A stretch of DNA of 64,000 nucleotides, from positions 1-64,000 of the forward strand of contig JAAVFP010000018.1 in the NCBI GenBank assembly GCA_014800735.1, read 5' to 3'. Below are positions 7,555-53,839 of the stretch, in pieces. Source of the DNA: Bacteroidales bacterium. GTDB lineage: Bacteria > Bacteroidota > Bacteroidia > Bacteroidales > Muribaculaceae. Numbering within the stretch: the stretch's first letter is position 1; each line of letters opens with the position of its first letter. The notes beneath the pieces are model-generated. The model saw only the letters and a list, made by a program, of their open reading frames with translations, did not search any database and was not told the origin of the DNA. The position numbers were made by a program, and so were the translations under genes.

Positions 7555-9380
7555 CGTTTTTTTACGTCTTCAATGTTCTTGATAGCTGCGGTAGCCTTGT
7601 CGTAGAGCCCGGCAACTTCTTCCTGCGAGTGCTGGGGTGTGAAGCGCGCCATCTCGCACTCGTCGAGCACTTCGAGCACACCCTTGGTCTGCTCAGCCGA
7701 AAGGCCATAGGCTTCGAGCTTACCGGCCACGTTCTCGCGGGTGAGCTGCGAGGGTGCGATGTTGAGCTTGTCGCTGATGTAGCCCCACAGTGCTTTGGCC
7801 AGCGACTGATAGAATGCATCCGTATGACCGGCCTGCATTTCGGCGCGGGCCGACTTGAGGCGCTTGGTGGCTACGCTGCCAGCTTTGGCAAGTTTGCGGC
7901 CTGCCACATCGGCATCCAGACGTATCTGCCGACGATACACGAACACCACACCGATGAACACCAGCACCACGAGCACGTAGAGCAGCCAGTAGAATGTTTT
8001 GTTGTAAGTGTAGGAGAGCTCGGTGTTCTGCTTTGCAAGCTCGGTGGGCTTGATGTGAAGGATATCCTCAATCTTGTGGTCGATGGCGGTTTGCTGCGGA
8101 GCAGCCGCTGCGGAGTTGCCTCGGAGCACACGGATGGGCATATCGGGCACGTTGATAGTTTCGTACTTATGGCTCTCGAGGTCGAAATACACGAAAGGTG
8201 TTCCTTCTATCGTGAAGTTGCCAACTTCCTGAGGCACGATGGTGAAATCAGTGCGGAATGTACCGCTCATGTTAGTGCCACCTGCGGTTACAACGGCGTT
8301 GATATCGTTCTTGGGCGTGTAGGTGTCAATTCCGGCAGGGAACTGCACGTCGGGGTCCGAAAGGTACTTTATGTTGCCCGTGCCTTTCACAATGTAGGAG
8401 TAGACGGAAGCTTCGTTGGTGCGCATCAGCTCGGGTTCGAGCGCAGTGCTCACCGAGAAGCGGCCCACAGCACCCGAGAAGCCCGCAGGGCGGGGTTCGG
8501 GCAGGGCTTTCACCTGAAGGGTGGCGGCATTGGACGATGTGGTCACCTCGCGCTCAACGGGACGGGCGGTGCGGAAGAAGCCCATGTTCACCTGTTCGTA
8601 CTGCACGATAGTCACGTCGTACTTACCGGAGTTCACACTGAGTGCACCGGCTTTCTGTGGATAGAGCAGCAAGCGCTTGAGTACTGCCGTATGGTAGTTC
8701 TGACCGTTGTAATGCTCCATTGAGGTTTCAAGGGTCACGGGGAGTTCCTCGCACAGGAAGCCTTCGAAAGCCGGCTGTGTGGTGACCATGAACGACGAAA
8801 TATCGTACTTGGTGTAGACCTTGATTGTGGCCACTACGGGTTCCTGCTCGTAGACGCTGGATTTGGAGAATGATACACGCACCAGGAGGTCCGAAGCCGA
8901 GATGTTGCCGGGAGTCTGGGTGGAGGGGTCATCGGGACTAACAGCCGGACGAGCGCTCTGCCCTGCTCCACCCTGACCCTGTGCGTTGGAGTCGCCGGGG
9001 AGAATCTGGAATGTTGCAGCACGCGAGCGCAGGGTCTGGCCGTTGCTGCTGACAGATACTTCGGGCACCTTGACCGTGCCGGCCTTATCGGCTCGGTACA
9101 TGAAAGTGAAGTCCACGGAGTAGCTCGAGGTCATGCGGCCGTTCACAATTTGTGTGCTCTGCATGGTGGATGTGGAGGGACCGTAGAGAAGTGTGCAGCC
9201 ATCAAGTTGAGGTGCAGCCGGCGGATTGGCTTCGCCGTCGGCCAGGCGGAATGTGAGGCTGAAGTTGCGGCCTTCAATCACATTACGCGGCTGAATGAGC
9301 GAGAAGGACGCCTGCTGACCCATGGCCATAAGGGCGGCGGACGCTATCAGCCAAAATAGTATGAAACGTTTGTATGTCAT
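7551..9380 (-). CDS. batD: BatD-like protein
   Basis: 609 aa; FSLTFRLADGEANPPAAPQLDGCTLLYGPSTSTMQST typical of BatD; operon context. Confidence 0.85.
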   Translation of the reverse strand: MTYKRFILFWLIASAALMAMGQQASFSLIQPRNVIEGRNFSLTFRLADGEANPPAAPQLDGCTLLYGPSTSTMQSTQIVNGRMTSSYSVDFTFMYRADKAGTVKVPEVSVSSNGQTLRSRAATFQILPGDSNAQGQGGAGQSARPAVSPDDPSTQTPGNISASDLLVRVSFSKSSVYEQEPVVATIKVYTKYDISSFMVTTQPAFEGFLCEELPVTLETSMEHYNGQNYHTAVLKRLLLYPQKAGALSVNSGKYDVTIVQYEQVNMGFFRTARPVEREVTTSSNAATLQVKALPEPRPAGFSGAVGRFSVSTALEPELMRTNEASVYSYIVKGTGNIKYLSDPDVQFPAGIDTYTPKNDINAVVTAGGTNMSGTFRTDFTIVPQEVGNFTIEGTPFVYFDLESHKYETINVPDMPIRVLRGNSAAAAPQQTAIDHKIEDILHIKPTELAKQNTELSYTYNKTFYWLLYVLVVLVFIGVVFVYRRQIRLDADVAGRKLAKAGSVATKRLKSARAEMQAGHTDAFYQSLAKALWGYISDKLNIAPSQLTRENVAGKLEAYGLSAEQTKGVLEVLDECEMARFTPQHSQEEVAGLYDKATAAIKNIEDVKKR

Positions 9381-23330: not shown

Positions 23331-26300
23331 TTATATTTCGGTCGGTTTCTGGGTGTCATCGGCCGCTGAGGTTCCGGTGGGATTGGTATCTTCGTCAGCG
23401 AATACCTTGGATAGATATTTCTCCTGGAACTTCTGTAGCATCTCCCACATGGAGGGAACAAAGAGTGTGCCGAGCACTGCGTTGATTGCCATGCCGAACA
23501 CTACTGCCGTGCCGAGCGAAACTCGGCTGGCCGCACCGGCACCGGTGGCGAAGAGCATAGGCATCACACCGAACACGAATGCGAGTGCCGTCATGGCGAT
23601 AGGACGCAAGCGCACATCGCCGGCCGATTCGGCTGCCTGGCGGATAGGCTGCCCTGCCTTGCGGTAGTCCATGGCATACTCCACAATCAGGATGGCGTTC
23701 TTGGCCGCCATGCCCAGCAGCAGGATGATGCCAATCTGGGTGTAGATACTGATGCTCTGGCCCATGAAAAGGCAACCTATCACGGCCCCGAGGATTGCCG
23801 TCGGGGTGGTGATTACGACGGCTACAGGGTCGGTCCACGATTCATACTGCGCGGCAAGCACAAGGATGGTGAGGATGATGGCAAAGATAAGTACGGCCGA
23901 CACTGTGGTGCCCGACTGGGTTTCCTGAAGGGCCTCGCCCGTCCAGGCGTAGGAGAAATTCTTACCGATATCTTCCTTCATTATCTTCTCCATAGCTGCG
24001 ATGGCCTGCGATGAGCTTGTGTGGGGTGCCACACTGGCTGTGACGGACGTCGTGGTGTACATATTGTAGCGGTTCACGGTTGACTGCCCAAGAGTGGGTA
24101 CAATCTCGGCAAAGGAGCCGAAGGGCACCATCTCGCCACTGGCATTGCGCACGCTCAGTGAAAGCACATCCTGGGGACTCTGGCGTGCAGCAGGGTCGCC
24201 ACTCAGTGTCACCTGATAGGTTCGCCCGAACTTCACGAAATCGTTCACATAGTCGCTGCCCATGAAGGATGACAGCGCACCGTAGACGCTTTCAAGCGTC
24301 AGGCCGTACATTTTCACCTTGTCGCGGTTGAGCTGCACGGTGTACTGCGGCACCTCGCCCTGATAGAGCGATGTCACCTTGGAAATTTCAGGATACTTTT
24401 TGGCGGCGTCCTGAATCTGGGCCACGGCGGATGCAATCTGCTCCGGACCCAGGTTGTTGATGTCCAGCAGCTGCATTTCAAGGCCGGAACTCATGCCAAG
24501 GCCAGGGATGGCCGGCGGATTGAGCGAGAACACTATGGCCTCCTGAACCGGCGCTGTGATTTCATCCACCTTGGCGATGACCGACGAAACATCGTTGTCC
24601 TTTCCCTTACGCTCCTTCCATGGTTTGAGCACCACGAACATCGAGCCCAGGTTGCTGCCGGCACCGCCGGCCATGAACGACATGCCACTGATGCTGATAA
24701 CGTCCTTCACCTGAGGCAGGCTACGGATGTCGGCTTCCACACGCCGCATCACACTGTCAGTGCGCGTGAGCGAAGCACCGGTGGGCAGCTGTACGGAGGT
24801 CATAAAGTAGCCCATATCTTCCTGCGGCACGTAGCTGGTAGGCATTTTGGAGAAGCCGAAGAAAGCGGCACCGATAATTGCGGCGAACAGGATAAATGCA
24901 ATAGCGGGCTTGCGTAGCAGTCGGCCGACGGTGGAATTGTAGGCCTTACGCACTACTTCGAAGCCGTTGTTGAACCAACGGAACAGAATGAAACGTACGG
25001 GTTTGGTGCGACGGCGCAGGAACAGCGCGCACATGGCTGGGGTGAACGTAAGCGCGTTGAAGCCCGAGAAGGCTGTCGATACGGCAATGGTGAGGGCGAA
25101 CTGTTTGTAGAGCTCACCGGTAATACCCGAAATGAAAGCCGTGGGGATGAACACGGACAGAAGCACAAGTACTTCGCCGATTACCGGGCCCTGCAGTTCG
25201 TCCATGGCCTGAAGGGCGGCATCCTTGGGCGAGAGCTTGCCCTCGCTCAATATTCGGGCACAATCCTCCACCACAACAATGGCATCGTCGACCACAATGG
25301 CGATTGCCAGCACAAGGCCGAACAGCGTGAGCGTGTTGATGGTGAAGCCGAGCAGCTTCATCACGGCAAAGGTGGCGATGAGCGATACCGGAATCGTAAT
25401 CATCGGGATAATCGTTGCACGCCAGTTCTGCAGGAACAGCATGATGACGAGCATAACGATGAGCGTTGTTTCAAGGAAGGTCACCAGGACATCATCGATC
25501 GATGCGGTCACAAATTCTGTGGTGTCAAGAATCACACGGTAGTGAATTCCGGCGGGGAAGTATTCGCTCAGCTCGCCCATGCGCTTTTCAACCGCCTTGG
25601 CCACGCTCAGTGCGTTGGCTCCGGGCAGCTGATAGATGCCGATAAGGCCGGCGTTCTTGCCGGAGACGTGCGAAATCTGACTATAGGACTGGCTACCGAG
25701 GTCAACAGTAGCAACGTCGCTCAGGCGCAGCAGCGAGCCATCGTCGCCGGTGCGGATAACGATATTGGCGAATTCCTCGGCATTATCCAGGCGTCCGGGT
25801 GATGTAAGGGTGAATTCGAAGGGGGTGTTGCCGCCAGTAGGAGGCGCACCGGCTGAACCGGCCGAAACTTCCATGTTCTGGTTCTGGATGGCTGTCATGA
25901 CATCGGTGGCAGTAATGCCTCGCACCTGCATTTTTTCGGGGTCGAGCCACACACGCATGCTGTACTCGCCTGAGCCAAAAGCACTCACGCCGCCCACACC
26001 GTCCACGCGCGAGAGCTCGTCCACGATGTTGAGCTGCGCGTAGTTGGTGAGGAACAGGCCGTCGTAGCGCTCTGCGTCGTCGCTCTCAAGGGCAATAAAC
26101 AGGATGATGTTGGACGAGCGCGAGGTGACCGACACACCCTGCTGTTTCACAGCCGTAGGCAGTTGAGCTTCGGCCTGGGCAACGCGGTTCTGCACTTTCA
26201 CCTGGGCCATGTCAAGGTCGGTGCCGTTCTCGAATGTAATCTGGAGCGAGTACGAACCGTCCGACGACGAGTTGGAACTCATGTAGAGCATGCCTTCCAC

Positions 26301-26516
26301 ACCGTTCACCTGCTCCTCGATGGGAACACCGATAGTTTCGGCCACAGTCTTGGCATCGGCGCCGGGATAGCTTGCCGACACCATTACGGTGGGAGGTGTA
26401 ATGTCGGGGTACTGCGCAACAGGCAGTGTGCGCACTGTCAGGATACCGGCCAGAATCATGATGATGGCCAGGACAGTGGCAAATATGGGTCGGTTGATAA
26501 AAAATTTGCTTAACAT
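23331..26516 (-). CDS. RND efflux pump inner-membrane permease (AcrB/MexB-like)
   Basis: 1061 aa; MLSKFFINRPIFATVLAIIMILAGILTVRTLPVAQYPDITPP and other HAE1 motifs. Confidence 0.96.
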   Translation of the reverse strand: MLSKFFINRPIFATVLAIIMILAGILTVRTLPVAQYPDITPPTVMVSASYPGADAKTVAETIGVPIEEQVNGVEGMLYMSSNSSSDGSYSLQITFENGTDLDMAQVKVQNRVAQAEAQLPTAVKQQGVSVTSRSSNIILFIALESDDAERYDGLFLTNYAQLNIVDELSRVDGVGGVSAFGSGEYSMRVWLDPEKMQVRGITATDVMTAIQNQNMEVSAGSAGAPPTGGNTPFEFTLTSPGRLDNAEEFANIVIRTGDDGSLLRLSDVATVDLGSQSYSQISHVSGKNAGLIGIYQLPGANALSVAKAVEKRMGELSEYFPAGIHYRVILDTTEFVTASIDDVLVTFLETTLIVMLVIMLFLQNWRATIIPMITIPVSLIATFAVMKLLGFTINTLTLFGLVLAIAIVVDDAIVVVEDCARILSEGKLSPKDAALQAMDELQGPVIGEVLVLLSVFIPTAFISGITGELYKQFALTIAVSTAFSGFNALTFTPAMCALFLRRRTKPVRFILFRWFNNGFEVVRKAYNSTVGRLLRKPAIAFILFAAIIGAAFFGFSKMPTSYVPQEDMGYFMTSVQLPTGASLTRTDSVMRRVEADIRSLPQVKDVISISGMSFMAGGAGSNLGSMFVVLKPWKERKGKDNDVSSVIAKVDEITAPVQEAIVFSLNPPAIPGLGMSSGLEMQLLDINNLGPEQIASAVAQIQDAAKKYPEISKVTSLYQGEVPQYTVQLNRDKVKMYGLTLESVYGALSSFMGSDYVNDFVKFGRTYQVTLSGDPAARQSPQDVLSLSVRNASGEMVPFGSFAEIVPTLGQSTVNRYNMYTTTSVTASVAPHTSSSQAIAAMEKIMKEDIGKNFSYAWTGEALQETQSGTTVSAVLIFAIILTILVLAAQYESWTDPVAVVITTPTAILGAVIGCLFMGQSISIYTQIGIILLLGMAAKNAILIVEYAMDYRKAGQPIRQAAESAGDVRLRPIAMTALAFVFGVMPMLFATGAGAASRVSLGTAVVFGMAINAVLGTLFVPSMWEMLQKFQEKYLSKVFADEDTNPTGTSAADDTQKPTEI

Positions 26517-26533
26517 AACGCTTCGGGATTACC

Positions 26534-27655
26534 TTATTTAACAACGTTGGGTTTCACGGTCATTCCGTCGCGCACTTTCAGTAGAGCCTTGGTCACATAA
26601 CGGTCACCGGCCTTGATACCTTTGGTTACGATGCGGAGCGTGTCCTGGTAGGTTTGACCGACCTCAATGGGTGTGTAGACAACCTTGTTGGAGTCGTTGA
26701 GCACGTACAGGTACTTGCCCAACTGGTCGGTGCCGATCGAAGCATCTTTCACCAGGATTGCATCAGGGTCAATGCCGTAGGGAATATCCATCACAACGTA
26801 CATGCCGCTGCGCAGTTCGCCGTAAGGATTCTGGATACTTGCCTGGAACAGCATGGTGCCCGTGGAAGTGCTCACGTGGGGGTCGGTGTAGCTCAGTTTG
26901 GCGGTGTACTCGTGCTGGAGGGTATCGGTGAAGCTCACAGGTATATTATCGAAGTCAATCCGGCTCTCCTCGATTGCCTTGCGGAGGTCGGCCAGATAAG
27001 TAGCGTCTTCGATATTGAAATTCGCTGTCACCTTGGCATCGTTGTAAAGGCTTGCAAGCACCACCGGCGAACCAGCTCCCGAAAGGTAGGAGCCGGTTGT
27101 ATAGGGTGAGTTGGACATATGTCCGTCCTGCGGGGCTGTCACGGTGCAGTAGGACAATTGGGTCTGGGCAGTCTGAAGCGCTGCGCGGGCAGTCTTGATG
27201 TTGGCTTCGCTCTGCTCCAGATTGCTGCGGGCCTGTATTACTTCCATCTCGCTCACAGCATCGGATTTGAACGCCTCGGTCATGGCCTCGTAGCGGCTGG
27301 CGGCGTACTTGTTTTCAGCCTCGGCAGTGGCCAGAGCCGCCTGAGCTTTGCTCACGGCATCGCGGTAGTTGCGGTCCTCGATTCGGAACAGGACGGTGCC
27401 TTTGCGCACGAAGTCGCCGGCCGTGTAGTCCTGGCTCACCAGGTAGCCGTCCACGCGGGCAACGAGCTGAATTTCGTGGTCGGCCGACAGATGGCCAGGA
27501 TAGGATTTGCGGAGCACCACCGAGTCCTGCACGGGAAATGCCACGTCCACTGTCATAACTTCGGCAGCCATGTCGGCATCCTTGCGGTTGCGGCTGCATG
27601 AGCTTGCGGCCACCACAGTTGCCGCAGCAAGAAGGAAGAAAACTGATTTATTCAT
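26534..27655 (-). CDS. RND efflux periplasmic adaptor (AcrA-like)
   Basis: Lipoprotein signal, biotinyl-lipoyl-like and hairpin regions; adjacent to the permease. Confidence 0.93.
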   Translation of the reverse strand: MNKSVFFLLAAATVVAASSCSRNRKDADMAAEVMTVDVAFPVQDSVVLRKSYPGHLSADHEIQLVARVDGYLVSQDYTAGDFVRKGTVLFRIEDRNYRDAVSKAQAALATAEAENKYAASRYEAMTEAFKSDAVSEMEVIQARSNLEQSEANIKTARAALQTAQTQLSYCTVTAPQDGHMSNSPYTTGSYLSGAGSPVVLASLYNDAKVTANFNIEDATYLADLRKAIEESRIDFDNIPVSFTDTLQHEYTAKLSYTDPHVSTSTGTMLFQASIQNPYGELRSGMYVVMDIPYGIDPDAILVKDASIGTDQLGKYLYVLNDSNKVVYTPIEVGQTYQDTLRIVTKGIKAGDRYVTKALLKVRDGMTVKPNVVK

Positions 27656-27670
27656 ATCGGTAGAAGTATT

Positions 27671-29086
27671 TTATTCCACCCAGCCGCCGCCGAGTGCTTT
27701 GTATAATTCAATAAGTGCGGTCAGAGCCTGGCCCTTGGCCGAAACAAGAGTATTCTGATAGTTGAGATAGTCAAGTTGGGCATCCACAACGGGAGTGAAG
27801 GATGAGAGGCCGTCCTTGTAGAGCTCCACTGATTTATCGAGCGACTCATGGCTGTTTTCCACTACTTCGTTGATCGAGGCGATATAGCGGAGTTCGGCCG
27901 AATAGCGAGCCATGGCGTTGCGCACTTCCTCGATAGCCGTCATCACGGTCAGATTGTAGGCATCCACCTCGGATTCCATGGCCTCGCGTGCGGACACAAT
28001 ATTATACTTGCGAGCGAAGCCGTCGAACAGCGTCCACGACAGCGTTGGCGCAATAGAGTAACCGATGCTTGCACGGCTGAACAGGTCTCCGAAGTTGTGG
28101 GCGTCAGTTCCCAGAGTAGCCTGGATGGAAAGCGATGGCAGGTAGTCCTTCTTGGCTATGCCGAGGTCGGCAGCTGCAATTTCAATGGAGCGTTGGGCTT
28201 CCACAATGTCGGGGCGGCGGCGCAGAAGGTCCAGCGGCACACCCATGTCCACCAGGCGGTATTGGCTCGGAATGTCCTTTGCTTGATAAACACTTGCGGG
28301 AAGCTCGGCACGAGGAGTGCCGGTAAGCACTGCCAGGGCATTGTATGACGCTTCAATCTGAGCTTCGAGCAGCGGAATCTGCGCAACTGTGGAATAGTAG
28401 ACCGTGCGGGCCTGGGTGACGTCGAGTTTCGATGATAGTCCGGTTTTGTAGCGCACTTCGGTCATGTGCACTGTCTGCTCCTGGCTTTCGGAGTGTGTTC
28501 GGGCTATTTCGAGCTGCGTTTTCTGCACGAGAAGTCCGATGTAGGTTTCGGCAATCTCGGCATCGAGCGCGAGAATCACCGACGCATATTCGGCAGCACT
28601 AAGCTTCACCTGCGATTTGGCCTTGCCAACCTGAGCGGTGATTTTGCCGAACACATCCACTTCCCAATTCATGGTGGCAGCACCGCTGAAGTAGCTCATG
28701 GTTGTAGCCGCGCCCTCGCTTCCGGCCATACGGCCCGATGTGCGGGTGCGGTTCCAGCCTGCCGATAGCCCTATCTGCGGATAGTAGGCACTACGTGCCG
28801 ACCCCACAGCTGCCCGGGCAGCGTTGATGCGGCGTGCGGCCATAGTGGCGTTGTAGTTGTTCTGCTCACCGATGGTAATAAGAGAATCAAGCAACTGGTC
28901 ATCGAAAGTTTCCCACCAACGGGCGTTGGAAGCATCCACCTCGCTTGCTGCGGGTGTGCCTTCGGGCACTACCCAGTGTTCCGATGGAGTGAAATTCATG
29001 TAGTCGCCTTTGTCGGCAGCGAATGCACCGGTACCACCCAGTAGACCTACGGCAGTCAGGAGATAGCTTAGTGATGAATATTTCAT
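27671..29086 (-). CDS. TolC-family outer membrane factor (NodT/OprM-like)
   Basis: Start chosen at MKYSSLSYLL; RRPDIVEAQRSIEIAAADLGIAKKDYLPSLSI; adjacent to the RND genes. Confidence 0.93.
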   Translation of the reverse strand: MKYSSLSYLLTAVGLLGGTGAFAADKGDYMNFTPSEHWVVPEGTPAASEVDASNARWWETFDDQLLDSLITIGEQNNYNATMAARRINAARAAVGSARSAYYPQIGLSAGWNRTRTSGRMAGSEGAATTMSYFSGAATMNWEVDVFGKITAQVGKAKSQVKLSAAEYASVILALDAEIAETYIGLLVQKTQLEIARTHSESQEQTVHMTEVRYKTGLSSKLDVTQARTVYYSTVAQIPLLEAQIEASYNALAVLTGTPRAELPASVYQAKDIPSQYRLVDMGVPLDLLRRRPDIVEAQRSIEIAAADLGIAKKDYLPSLSIQATLGTDAHNFGDLFSRASIGYSIAPTLSWTLFDGFARKYNIVSAREAMESEVDAYNLTVMTAIEEVRNAMARYSAELRYIASINEVVENSHESLDKSVELYKDGLSSFTPVVDAQLDYLNYQNTLVSAKGQALTALIELYKALGGGWVE

Positions 29087-29333
29087 AAGTAGGAATAGTT
29101 TTTTGTTAACTTTATAACAAGTGAATAGGGAGGGAATTTGAGTGTTTAACAAAATTTAACCACAAGCCAAACTACCATACTTTTTTCAGCCAACGTAAAA
29201 AGTATAGTAATGACTACTCAATATTCATGCATGACAAGCGACTGAAAAGTCCGGCAAATTATGTGATAAAAAAGGAATTTTAGATATTAAGGAATAGATA
29301 ATTGCCGATAATTCCTATGGGAAAATGATAGTG

Positions 29334-29511
29334 ACTCTTAATAAGAGATATTTAAACATCTAAAAGATCTTGCACTCAGAAATATAAACAAAGTGTGTGT
29401 TTTGAAATCCTATATATGAATACAGATTTACCGATTTTTTTGTTTAGATAAAACCTCATTCAAAATTAATTACTACCTTTGCAACACATTTGTATATCTC
29501 TTATTAAGAGT
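29334..29511. repeat. 18-bp perfect inverted repeats bounding a 142-bp spacer
   Basis: ACTCTTAATAAGAGATAT (29334-29351) and its exact reverse complement ATATCTCTTATTAAGAGT (29494-29511). Confidence 0.9.
29474..29481 (+). promoter_or_regulatory. -7-like promoter element inside the inverted-repeat segment
   Basis: TACCTTTG(CA) matches TAnnTTTG; no convincing -33 TTTG at the usual spacing. Confidence 0.5.
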
Positions 29512-29546
29512 GAATATCGCTCTAAAATTATCTAACACCAATTTTC

Positions 29547-30863
29547 ATGAAGAAAATTTTACTTCTAATCGCGGCTGCCGGTCTTATGGCCGGTTCTGCA
29601 TCGGCTGCCCAGCGTGCAGCCAGCCCTGCCAAGCAGGCTATTGCCAAGGCGAACAAAGCAGCCAAGGCAATCCGCAAAATCAACGACCAGCACTCGGAAG
29701 CACAATGGCGCCCCGGCACTATCGCTAACTACGCTATGGAAGATGGCGAATGGGTAGGCCCCTTTAACCAAAAGTGCACCTACACCCCCGAAGGTCGCAT
29801 TGCAAGCCTTGAAGTTGAAAATCAATCCAAGGTCCTCTATACATACAACGAGGACGGTATGATTGCCACCGAGGTACAGTCTTATTATAATGAATGGGAC
29901 GAAAAGTGGGTTGAGTCCTCCAACATCACTTACACCTACGACAGCGTTGTGAAGGATTTTGTGGTGAAGCAAGAGACTAAAGCCGAATGGGGCACCTACG
30001 TGAATGGTTACAAGATTGAACGCAACGCCGAAGGCAATGTAACCTCAGTTACCGAATATTCCAGTTCGGATGATTATTACTACGAGTACGCTACTGTGCG
30101 TTACTACTACGGCACGGACGGCAAGGTGAATAAAATGACCACGGAGGACGAGGACGGCGTGTACCACTGGGTGGACAACATCACCTGGGAGAACACCGAC
30201 GGCCAGATTCTTGAGTTCGAGTACGATGAGTACGAAGCCAACCTCTACTTCGGCGCCAACCGCATCAAGAGCGGCGACATCATGGACGATGATTGGCCTT
30301 CGCTGGGCAAACTCACTGTGGAATACAAGGGCAAGGACTACAAGAGTAAAATTTTGGTGGACGATACGACCGTCCTTGACATCGACTACAAGTGGGTTGA
30401 CGATTTCGGCAGCTACGACGTGAAGATGTCCGACACCGATATCGACGAGGACGAGGGCGAATACTACGTTGACTATACCGATATCTCCACCATCAGCTTC
30501 CGCGTGGATGCTTACGGCATCGTGCTCCTGGAGAAGACTGAGAGCGAGTGCATCTACAGCAACGAGAGTTACGAACCCAGCTACGAAGTGGACGGTTACC
30601 GCCGCGAAGTGACCTACGACGAAGAGTTCGGCTATCCTCTGGAAGTGCTCGAATACGAAATCGAAGAGGACGAGGAGGAATTGTGCGGCAAAACCGTTTA
30701 TTCCGACTACGCTGAGTACGAGCCTACCACTGCTATCGAAGAGGTGACTGTTGAAAATGCTCCCGTTGAATACTTCACAATCCAGGGTATCCGCGTAGAA
30801 AATCCCGGCAAGGGTCTTTATATCCGTCGCCAGGGTGCAACAACCACCAAAGTAATCTTCTAA
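29547..30863 (+). CDS. Secreted Tyr/Asp/Glu-rich protein with Bacteroidetes C-terminal tail motif
   Basis: Signal peptide MKKILLLIAAAGLMAGSASA; YFTIQGIRVENPGKGLYIRRQGATTTKVIF tail. Confidence 0.8.
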   Translation: MKKILLLIAAAGLMAGSASAAQRAASPAKQAIAKANKAAKAIRKINDQHSEAQWRPGTIANYAMEDGEWVGPFNQKCTYTPEGRIASLEVENQSKVLYTYNEDGMIATEVQSYYNEWDEKWVESSNITYTYDSVVKDFVVKQETKAEWGTYVNGYKIERNAEGNVTSVTEYSSSDDYYYEYATVRYYYGTDGKVNKMTTEDEDGVYHWVDNITWENTDGQILEFEYDEYEANLYFGANRIKSGDIMDDDWPSLGKLTVEYKGKDYKSKILVDDTTVLDIDYKWVDDFGSYDVKMSDTDIDEDEGEYYVDYTDISTISFRVDAYGIVLLEKTESECIYSNESYEPSYEVDGYRREVTYDEEFGYPLEVLEYEIEEDEEELCGKTVYSDYAEYEPTTAIEEVTVENAPVEYFTIQGIRVENPGKGLYIRRQGATTTKVIF

Positions 30864-50142: not shown

Positions 50143-51252
50143 ATGGAAACAGATGTAAAGGTAAGACTGGTGTATAACCGAAAAAAGAATGCAACTCTTA
50201 GAACTGCCCCGGTGCCAAAAACGGGGGTGGTAGAAATTGTGGTGTCCGAAGGACGTAAGCGTCGACTGACTTCTACGGGTATAAAGCTATATCTGGACCA
50301 ATGGAAGGATGGCATGGTGGTGAATCACGTTGATGCTGCTGATATGAATATAAAGCTCCGCAGGCTCTACGAGGAGGCTGTGCAGTCGGTGAACGATATG
50401 GGCCTGGCTGCTGTGGCCGACGCTCAGATGGGCAAGAAGGATTTCTGCGACTGGATGCAGGAGCAGATTGAGGACCGTACGGATATTGCCGAGATAACAC
50501 GAAGCGCTCATTTACGCACGGTGGCGTATCTGAGGGAGTCGGGCCTGTTCCGCCGTTTCTCGGACCTGACGGAGCGTAATATCACGCTATGGGACCAGCA
50601 GCTGAAGAAACGCCTGAATAAGCAGTCGGCCGTTCATGGCTACCACAAGCGCTTAAAGACGTACATTTCGCGTGCGATGCATCTGGGCCTGCTGAAGGAG
50701 AGCCCGTACAGGTTTGTGCGTGTTCCCAAGGGCAAGAGTGATGGCATTAAGTATCTGACGCCGGAGGAGCGCGACCGTGTGGAGGCGCTGGAGCTGACGG
50801 GCACGTTGGCTGTGGTGAGGGATATGTTTATCTTTGCGTGTTATACGGGGCTTGCGTACTGCGACCTGGTGAGGGTGAAGGATTGCGTGGTGCAGGAGCG
50901 CGGGGCGTGGATAATAGACAGTAGCCGGCTTAAGACGAATGTGCGCTACAAGCTGAAGGTGTTGCCGAAGGCGTTGGAGATTTTGGAGCGGTACGATTTT
51001 GATCTGAATCTGATGTCGAATCAGAAGTGTAACATGAATCTGAAGGCTATCCAGGCGATGGCGAAGATTCAGACGAACATGAGTATGCACGTGGGGCGCC
51101 ATACGTTCGCTACGTGGGCATTGTCGATGGGTGTACCGCTGCCGGTGGTGTCGAAGATGCTTGCGCATACGAATATTGTCACTACGCAGATTTATGCCAG
51201 GGTGCTTCAAACCGAAGTTGAGAAAGGTTTTGACACACTTATGGGCTGTTGA
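50143..51252 (+). CDS. Site-specific tyrosine recombinase (integrase)
   Basis: C-terminal catalytic block MHVGRHTFATWALSMGVPLPVVSKMLAHTNIVTTQIYARV; next to the tRNA. Confidence 0.93.
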   Translation: METDVKVRLVYNRKKNATLRTAPVPKTGVVEIVVSEGRKRRLTSTGIKLYLDQWKDGMVVNHVDAADMNIKLRRLYEEAVQSVNDMGLAAVADAQMGKKDFCDWMQEQIEDRTDIAEITRSAHLRTVAYLRESGLFRRFSDLTERNITLWDQQLKKRLNKQSAVHGYHKRLKTYISRAMHLGLLKESPYRFVRVPKGKSDGIKYLTPEERDRVEALELTGTLAVVRDMFIFACYTGLAYCDLVRVKDCVVQERGAWIIDSSRLKTNVRYKLKVLPKALEILERYDFDLNLMSNQKCNMNLKAIQAMAKIQTNMSMHVGRHTFATWALSMGVPLPVVSKMLAHTNIVTTQIYARVLQTEVEKGFDTLMGC

Positions 51253-51257
51253 GTAAG

Positions 51258-51294
51258 CGGGCTCCGGATTAGGAATTTCCGGGGCCCGTTTTTT
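51258..51294 (+). terminator. Terminator after the integrase
   Basis: CGGGCTCCGG / CCGGGGCCCG (one wobble) then TTTTTT. Confidence 0.8.
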
Positions 51295-51565
51295 CTTTAC
51301 CTCCATTCTGCCGATTTCATAAAAAGATTGAGATGAGATTTATTTGGTTGTTGATGTCGGAGCGCGTGAGCGCGATGTTCGTTTTCTACATCATCAGAAA
51401 ATATCTTCTTTAGATATTTTCTACTTCCTTATCCATATCCTTATCCTATTTCCTATTTCCCTATCCATTACGCGCGCACGCGAGTTTACGGTTTGCTTTG
51501 GGTGTGCTTTGATTTTGGTTTCGTTTTGGTTTGCGTGTGCTTTCGGTTTGGTTTTTGGAGGGTGC

Positions 51566-51604
51566 AAAAAAATGGTGTGACTATCCGTCGCGGACGGTCA
51601 CACC
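51566..51604 (-). terminator. Minus-strand terminator downstream of the terminase-small-like gene
   Basis: GGTGTGA/TCACACC outer stem with CCGTC-GCG-GACGG inner stem; T7 run on the minus strand. Confidence 0.7.
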
Positions 51605-51677
51605 GGGGGTTGTAAAAATCATCGGTCTATGTAGTTAGGTTTGTTTGCACGGTTCTAAAGTAGACGAAATAGACGGA

Positions 51678-52106
51678 TTAGTCGTCGTCATCGTCGATGC
51701 CGCAGAGGGCGGCCAGGGTGTCCTCGATGGTTCGGGGGCCTACGTTGACTTCCATGTTTATGTCCTGGGATTTCATGCGCGGGGTGTGGAATTCGAGGAT
51801 CTTGAGTTCGGCGGCGACACGCTCGGAGGGGTCGAGTGCGAGCATATCGGCTTCGAAGTCGGACATCTCCAGGGGTATGCCGTCGGCATCGGCCAGGGGA
51901 ATCAGGTCGATTACTTTGCGGATGAGTCCGTCGGGGTCCTGCACGAGGCGCCCTCGTTGGATGAGCCGTGGCTGTCCGCTGACTTGGTCTATTTGCAGGC
52001 GGCGGGAGAAGTATTCGGTTGAGTGGTTGATGAGAATACCTTTTATGGGGTTGTTGCGGTTAGGCGTTCCTTTCTGTCGGCCGCCTGTCTTATATCCTTT
52101 TGCCAT
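51678..52106 (-). CDS. Phage terminase small subunit-like protein
   Basis: MAKGYKTGGRQKGTPNRNN N-terminus and DPSERVAAELKILEFHTPRMKSQDI; start chosen internally. Confidence 0.55.
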   Translation of the reverse strand: MAKGYKTGGRQKGTPNRNNPIKGILINHSTEYFSRRLQIDQVSGQPRLIQRGRLVQDPDGLIRKVIDLIPLADADGIPLEMSDFEADMLALDPSERVAAELKILEFHTPRMKSQDINMEVNVGPRTIEDTLAALCGIDDDDD

Positions 52107-52223
52107 GGTGGTGCATTTTTTTGAGGGGGTGACACAACGGTTAAAAGTGGAATACAAAGATAGGGACTTAACTTAGCGGGATAATTTTAAGTATTGTATT
52201 TCATATCATATAACCGCATTATT

Positions 52224-52721
52224 ATGGGACTTTTAGGAGGCATTATCGGAGGCGCAGCAGGAATTGCCGGCAGTATCTTCGGTGGCATCAGCGCGTCGAA
52301 GGCCATGAAGAAGGTGAAGAACAGCCTTAATGAGCAGAAGAGTGCTAACCGTGACTGGTTCGACCAGCGCTATAATGAGGACGCGACGCAGCGGGCCGAT
52401 GCGCAGGCTATACTGACCAAGACGGAGGAAACTATCAAGGCGCGCAACCGTGCTGCCGCGGGCGCTGCTGCGATGATGGGTGGCACGGAGGAGAGTGTGG
52501 CGGCCACGAAGGCGGCCAACTCCCAGGCTCAGGCCGAGGCTGCTGCGCAGATTGCAGTGAACGCAGACCGTCGCAAGGATGCAATCGAGCAGCAGTATCA
52601 GCAGCGTGACGCCCAGTTGCAGAATGCACTCGATAATGTTGAAGTGAATAAGGCTCAGGCGGTGAGCCAGGCTATAGGCGGGGTTGCGTCGGCCGCAGGT
52701 AATATTACCGGTGCATTTTAA
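52224..52721 (+). CDS. Phage internal-virion / ejection-type protein
   Basis: MGLLGGIIGGAAGIAGSIFGGISASKAMKK glycine-rich hydrophobic N-terminus then a long Ala/Gln coiled-coil, as in DNA-ejection/pilot proteins. Confidence 0.5.
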   Translation: MGLLGGIIGGAAGIAGSIFGGISASKAMKKVKNSLNEQKSANRDWFDQRYNEDATQRADAQAILTKTEETIKARNRAAAGAAAMMGGTEESVAATKAANSQAQAEAAAQIAVNADRRKDAIEQQYQQRDAQLQNALDNVEVNKAQAVSQAIGGVASAAGNITGAF

Positions 52722-52726
52722 GTGCG

Positions 52727-53839
52727 ATGGGTATGATTGAGGATAAAATAAGTATGCCCTCCTCTACTCCGGGGTTTGCTCCTGAGATTGCGGGGGCGCC
52801 CGGGGCTTCATCGAAGCCGGTGGAAAAACCGGTGGAGAAGCCGGTTCAGGAGGAGGATTCGTCGCTTCGCTCCGAACACAGTGGGGATGATGAGCTGGTG
52901 GGCTATGACAAGCAGATAGCTGCACTGGAAGCTGCGGCCGCTCAATTAGCTCCTGAAACAGAGGAGCAACGCAAAAAGCGTGAGCGACAGGAGCGCTCTA
53001 AGAAGATTATTGCTGCGATGACGGATGGTGCTATGGCACTATCCAATCTCTATTTTACCACACAGTATGCTCCTAACTCTTACCAGCCTCAGCACTCGCA
53101 GTTGGGTAAGGTGAACGAGCATATCGAGGCCATGAAGGCGGAGCGACGTGCTGACGGCGACCGATACAATAATTACATACTGAGATTGGGTGACTTACAA
53201 AATGCCAAGGCGCGGACGCTGCGGGAGATGCAGGCGCAGCATGAGGCTCAGAAGCTGGCAAGGGAGAAAGCGGCCCGCGAGGCTGCTTTGCATCCGTTTG
53301 CGATGGCGGAGGCTGAGGCCACGGCCAAGAGGCGGGAGCAGGAGGCGCTTTCGGCGCAGTATGCAGCGGAGTATGCCCCGGCCATGCAGGAAGCTAAGTT
53401 GGCTACTGAGCATGAACGAGCCGGAGCACAGAAGGCCTCGGCGACGGCGTCGTATGCCAAGGCTGCGGCTGCGGGCGGTAATAGAACGGTGTACGGCCGC
53501 TTTGACGGGAAGGATTATTATAACAAGCGCGATTATGACAAGGCTGTGCTTGCGGCTGCCGATGAGTATAATAAACGGCATCCGCAGTCTAAGCTGGTGC
53601 AAGAGGTGGTGTACGATGATGAGGACATGACTAAGGGTGGGCAGAAATGGGTTAAGAGGCCTACGGAGTCGATTGCGACTACGTGGGAGGATTGGCACGG
53701 CGACCCCAAGGATTATGATACGGCAAAGATTGCATCGCAGCTTGAGCGCGCGCTCCAGGAGGAGCGGAATGGGCAAACCACAGGACAGACGCCAGAAGGA
53801 GGCCAGGCGGCCGGATATAAGGACAGTCCCACAGCATAA
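52727..53839 (+). CDS. Phage virion-associated coiled-coil protein (putative ejection protein)
   Basis: Ala/Glu-rich coiled-coil with N-terminal DSSLRSEHSGDD repeat shared with the next ORF; context. Confidence 0.45.
   Translation: MGMIEDKISMPSSTPGFAPEIAGAPGASSKPVEKPVEKPVQEEDSSLRSEHSGDDELVGYDKQIAALEAAAAQLAPETEEQRKKRERQERSKKIIAAMTDGAMALSNLYFTTQYAPNSYQPQHSQLGKVNEHIEAMKAERRADGDRYNNYILRLGDLQNAKARTLREMQAQHEAQKLAREKAAREAALHPFAMAEAEATAKRREQEALSAQYAAEYAPAMQEAKLATEHERAGAQKASATASYAKAAAAGGNRTVYGRFDGKDYYNKRDYDKAVLAAADEYNKRHPQSKLVQEVVYDDEDMTKGGQKWVKRPTESIATTWEDWHGDPKDYDTAKIASQLERALQEERNGQTTGQTPEGGQAAGYKDSPTA

Follow-up and report, generated by a model that had tools for sequence, protein, structure and literature searches.

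The intergenic region at positions 29334-29511 of the 64,000-nucleotide stretch of Bacteroidales DNA analysed here (the window) is very probably a phase-variable promoter inverton; judging from sequence comparisons, we put the probability near 0.9. Its two sites belong to a set with CTCTT/AAGAG arms and are predicted to be flipped by a tyrosine recombinase of the Tsr type. Such an enzyme, encoded elsewhere on the chromosome, would recombine both inverted sites and flip the 142-bp promoter segment between them. In the assembled orientation the promoter would read out over the right site and drive the gene of the secreted protein, which starts at 29547 (ON). After inversion this gene would be without a promoter (OFF), and the promoter would face the leader of an RND efflux operon. 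An inverton had been proposed here by the initial annotation, and that reading is strongly supported by recurrent paired sites, spacers that match in every pair, recombinase genes adjoining such sites, a homologue in the opposite orientation, and a stereotyped gap between promoter and site.

Table 1. Positions of the inverton, its flanking genes and the genomic clusters of CTCTTANTAAGAG. Positions are those of the window or, for C23 and C27, of the contig.
Feature	Position	Strand	Remarks
Left inverted repeat	29334..29351	+	Core recombination site CTCTTAATAAGAG at 29335-29347; extended imperfect arm 29327-29356
Right inverted repeat	29494..29511	-	Core site CTCTTATTAAGAG at 29498-29510; extended imperfect arm 29489-29518
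Invertible segment	29352..29493		142 bp; 150 bp from core site to core site; 75% A+T; without a gene
Bacteroidales -7 promoter box TACCTTTG (TAnnTTTG)	29474..29481	+	Ends 16 bp before the right core site, pointing outward
Secreted protein, 438 aa	29547..30863	+	Signal peptide; probable output gene, ON in the assembly
TolC/NodT-type outer-membrane efflux gene	27671..29086	-	ATG at 29086; TIGR01845, 309 bits
RND periplasmic adaptor (AcrA/MexE-like)	26534..27655	-	TIGR01730, 214 bits
RND permease (AcrB-like)	23331..26516	-	NF000282, above cut-off
CTCTTANTAAGAG cluster C18	Window locus		2 sites, 163 bp apart
CTCTTANTAAGAG cluster C23	44707, 44867, 45258		3 sites between two divergent susCD operons
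CTCTTANTAAGAG cluster C27	2733, 2950		2 sites between an UpxY-family antiterminator-like gene and its neighbour

The perfect 18-bp inverted repeats (ACTCTTAATAAGAGATAT) and the 142 bp between them, as first annotated, are exact to the base. When mismatches are allowed, the arms extend to 30 nt and are 87% complementary. Resampling the intergenic region 200 times with a Markov model gave perfect long-loop inverted repeats of at most 12 bp, compared with the 18 bp observed. The core CTCTTANTAAGAG is found twice in the window (0.06 expected). The region holds a short, promoter-bearing intergenic segment within inverted repeats.

The promoter box TACCTTTG lies on the plus strand and faces the secreted-protein gene, as had been described; no clear -33 element was found at the usual spacing from it. 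The minus strand of the segment also has an exact TAnnTTTG, at 29468-29461. Its distance to the left site, 113 bp, does not fit the usual spacing, and this second box is probably fortuitous. In 32 pairs of related sites, the distance between a site and the end of an outward TAnnTTTG box is 14-17 bp in 24 pairs and 26 bp in 4. Among the first 16 invertons, 15 boxes lie 5-40 bp from a site, compared with 0.79 expected by shuffling. By analogy with the capsule invertons of B. intestinalis, whose transcription starts have been measured to lie in or near the proximal repeat (PMC8375218), transcription would be expected to begin there in this family too.

The sites recur in the genome, a 2.6-Mb draft assembly of 58 contigs that is 85.7% complete (contigs C27 and C32 contain N). 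Exact CTCTTANTAAGAG is present in 7 copies, compared with 0 for the reversed control, and every copy is clustered (Table 1). At C23 the SusC proteins are almost the same at their N-termini, and both segments have a TAnnTTTG box of their own. This locus is likely a small promoter shufflon with both susCD operons ON in the assembly; in the numbering of the excerpt L008 (G000 C23:36000-55000) its sites are at 8708, 8868 and 9259. The UpxY-like gene of C27 matches NF033644 (E 6e-14, 52 bits), under the curated cut-off of 100, and the neighbour on the opposite side is presumably gltD-like. In that locus (L009, G000 C27:1-15000) the inverton at 2733-2962 adjoins the UpxY-like gene at 1586-2599, whose product, at 337 aa, is longer than a typical UpxY. 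C56 carries a further site pair with a different spacer.

Summed over 149 genomes of the family, the exact motif occurs 73 times and its reversed control 43 times, a raw count from which it follows that the evidence lies in pairing and not in number. Many motif copies are at most about 160 bp from the end of a contig, as would be seen if invertons of mixed orientation interrupted assembly (G121 C4 and C15 position 105; G161 C107, C112 and C172; G149 C3; and L074, from G025 C45, at position 6). A literature search for the motif returned nothing relevant.

Pairing was surveyed with CTCTTNNNAAGAG sites less than 700 bp apart, found without requiring complementarity, at loci from the family of the host bacterium; the loci were chosen for holding the motif, often as pairs, and never by spacer. 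The 3-nt spacers are reverse-complementary within the pair in 32/32 neighbouring pairs, which represent 12 spacer classes. With the reversed control motif, the same survey yielded no pairs. The spacer differs among loci yet matches inside each pair. G078 C11 has two adjacent pairs (T/A, then C/G) whose inner neighbouring sites are unmatched, as expected if those sites belong to different invertons. The crossover region of a tyrosine recombinase requires complementary spacers, and operators have no reason to have them.

These observations bear on the possibility that the two sites are operators for a dimeric repressor or activator of the divergent genes, with no inversion. The palindromic character that the initial annotation ascribed to each repeat core is retained only in part, as a near-palindrome with one asymmetric centre base (A in the left copy, T in the right). 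A 13-bp, nearly perfect palindrome in each core and the divergent arrangement of the intergenic region would suit a pair of operators. Operators would not need alternating centre bases, yet all of the neighbouring pairs are complementary, with a spacer that varies by locus and is matched in each pair. Sites of this design also occur directly 3' of tyrosine recombinase genes, and homologous segments exist in opposite orientations. We consider two operators highly improbable, and we reject that model on the spacer complementarity and the recombinase link.

Under the inverton reading, the spacers could constitute a family-wide addressing code, in which Tsr enzymes share recognition of the CTCTT/AAGAG arms and the variable 3-nt spacer limits a site to its own partner. 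We offer this tentatively, at somewhat under even odds. Heteroduplex correction would keep the spacer identical within each pair; neighbouring invertons would flip independently, as at G078 C11, and shared spacers would make multi-site shufflons such as that of C23. The promoter box would be held 15-16 bp from the site or one helical turn further (26 bp). A site family with pair-matched spacers and a fixed promoter spacing was not found described in our literature search; the primary Tsr papers lay outside that search and newness is not claimed.

Opposite orientations are present in two relatives of the same family. G135 and G160 carry homologous invertons (L157 and L159) with collinear flanks, of which the left 150 bp are 90% identical. 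The first 60 bp of their inner segments are identical only as the reverse complement, and the whole segments are 74% identical as the reverse complement versus 48% in the same orientation. The centre base differs between the two genomes at both sites, and the segment has otherwise diverged. The difference at both sites indicates mutation and homogenisation within the pair in addition to inversion. Among the genomes compared, one per species, there was no strain of the host species itself with the opposite orientation.

Six proteins of the genome match Phage_integrase over the cut-off. Two of them we take to be XerC- and XerD-like, as read from sequence. The third is an integrase encoded at 50143-51252 of the window. 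The remaining three, on C16, C32 and C37, are Tsr-type recombinases of about 400 aa each, with mutual identities of 49-56%. The three Tsr genes have open frames and the Tsr-type domains Arm-DNA-bind_5, Phage_int_SAM_5 and Phage_integrase. A search of the Tsr against solved structures gave no match at E<=0.001. The C32 gene is directly followed on its 3' side by the repeat pair TCTCTAAATAAGAGA (loop of 169 bp), and the C37 gene likewise by CTCTTTCTAAGAGTACGTAAGAT (loop of 184 bp); no local repeat pair was found at the C16 gene. Repeat pairs of the same design are found 3' of homologous Tsr genes in seven further genomes of the same genus (L042, L048, L052, L055, L058, L059 and L061). The local promoter is directed away from the Tsr gene in L059, L061, L068 and L093, and towards it in L042, L069 and L162.

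One site family is present both beside the enzyme genes and at distant loci. The C27 sites and the C37 recombinase locus have the extension TACGTAAG in common, and their segments are 80% alike over 75 bp; the shared extension and segments suggest that the C37 enzyme probably acts on the C27 inverton. For the window, the most informative relative is G030, which has only one Tsr gene (L029) and carries the same CTCTTAATAAGAG site pair. Its Tsr protein is about 69% identical to that of C32, 60% to that of C16 and 51% to that of C37. Because this single enzyme is nearest that of C32 and accompanies the same site pair, the C32 Tsr is the best candidate and likely the enzyme of the window inverton, with C16 as the second candidate. 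The C32 recombinase would flip the window copy, and expression would follow orientation.

Other sources of the enzyme were considered. The window integrase was rejected: it resembles the integrases of mobile elements, its identity to the Tsr proteins is about 25%, and none of these repeats lie alongside it. A serine invertase was dropped, since PF00239 has 0 matches in the genome (85.7% complete). Comparing the exact motif with Tsr presence across the genus was uninformative, Tsr relatives with varied sites being present in 39 of 49 genomes.

No Tsr gene adjoins the window inverton, only one orientation is known for the window copy, and the flanks beyond the 18-bp core have drifted between the arms. 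These features would also fit a former inverton that is now locked or nearly so, leaving an effectively fixed promoter for the secreted-protein gene. The 18-bp cores are still a perfect match, spacer included, and the genome encodes three candidate Tsr enzymes in open frames, and we therefore regard a locked element as quite unlikely.

Several observations accompany the recombinase genes. In L068 (G000 C32, 2651-5970) the inverton 3' of the C32 recombinase faces an outer-membrane-efflux-like gene, followed by a gene with a SPOR-domain match, possibly another phase-variable envelope operon. A protein of about 470-490 aa is encoded opposite the Tsr gene across the local inverton in L132 (6776-8251), L069 (1137-2552) and L157 (1-1402). 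The L132 protein has a Phage_int_SAM_5 domain and no catalytic-domain match, and this group is possibly a phase-variable, catalytically dead relative of the recombinases. After the window integrase comes a protein with a weak match to phrog_805 (internal virion protein), and 50143-53839 may represent a small phage or mobile element that has integrated.

The secreted protein gave no match in Pfam and NCBIfam searches; its C-terminal ~45 aa are common to many secreted proteins of the genus. Its homologues from other species, with 33-40% identity, lack an inverton and have a TAnnTTTG box at -37 to -73 relative to the gene. The window box, at -73, lies within this range, and the inverton therefore seems to have enclosed the gene's own promoter. 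This fits the earlier proposal that the promoter drives the secreted protein in the assembled orientation, and the gene is likely under ON/OFF control of the inverton.

The TolC/NodT-type gene is the first on the other side of the inverton and would face the promoter once the segment is inverted. Its nearest named relatives are from Muribaculaceae or Porphyromonadaceae MAGs (57-58% identity), which makes Muribaculaceae the likely family of the host. A 13-bp imperfect inverted repeat in the tolC leader (window 29173-29209, TACCATACTTTTT...AAAAAGTATAGTA) may serve the efflux operon as an operator or as a leader hairpin. The switch could serve mainly this operon, making drug or bile efflux phase-variable and leaving the secreted protein a bystander. 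No intrinsic terminator was found between the inverton and tolC, and this interval has no exact TAnnTTTG box, both of which would suit such a role. The missing box is uninformative, however, because most tolC relatives likewise have no obvious box, and these relatives also have no inverton. The leader would be ~250-260 nt long, and the inverton-free homologues of the secreted protein carry a box of this type in a comparable place. A switch mainly for efflux is accordingly unlikely. The initial annotation's claim that inversion would point the promoter at the RND operon holds for the geometry; switching-on of the operon is unsupported, although the geometry would allow the flipped promoter to control these tolC-acrAB-like genes.

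The likeness to invertible promoters of Bacteroides that had been pointed out is borne out: by the features tested, the inverton belongs to the known Bacteroidales Tsr class. In B. fragilis, according to PMC4747536, which cites Nakayama-Imaohji 2009, Tsr0667 controls three SusC/SusD shufflons and nine other invertible regions. Four features are shared here: a tyrosine recombinase, dispersed short invertible promoters, a multi-site susCD locus and TAnnTTTG inside the segment. By this description, on which the comparison is based, the present system differs in its organism, its smaller set and its three Tsr paralogues versus one proven master enzyme. The Tsr19 (BF2766) system of B. fragilis comprises IVp-I and IVp-II (PMC4747536, PMC3090145). 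There, as here, an enzyme gene adjoins a local inverton and there are one or more distant ones (C37 local, C27 distant, with shared TACGTAAG). The targets of Tsr19 are an exopolysaccharide and an outer-membrane gene cluster; those found here are UpxY-like, susCD and secreted-protein/RND loci. The capsule promoters of Bacteroides inverted by the serine invertase Mpi have the repeat consensus ARACGTTCGTN (PMC8375218). They are likewise short, invertible and dispersed among loci, with transcription starting in or near the proximal repeat. In contrast, their recombinase is of the serine class, unmatched here, and their repeat is unrelated; ARACGTTCGTN-type repeats are absent from the inverton, whose repeats are ACTCTTAATAAGAGATAT.

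Our literature searches found no published work on phase variation in the large gut Bacteroidales family of the host. One recombinase class ties together secreted-protein, SusCD and UpxY-like loci of one genome. Of greatest interest is the site family itself, in which spacers match within pairs and the promoter stands at a fixed distance, and the spacer-matching rule makes the partner choice of these enzymes directly testable. Phase-variable loci can be searched for from sequence alone by this signature: paired CTCTT-N3-AAGAG sites whose spacers are complementary, together with a TAnnTTTG box that is 14-17 bp from one of the two.
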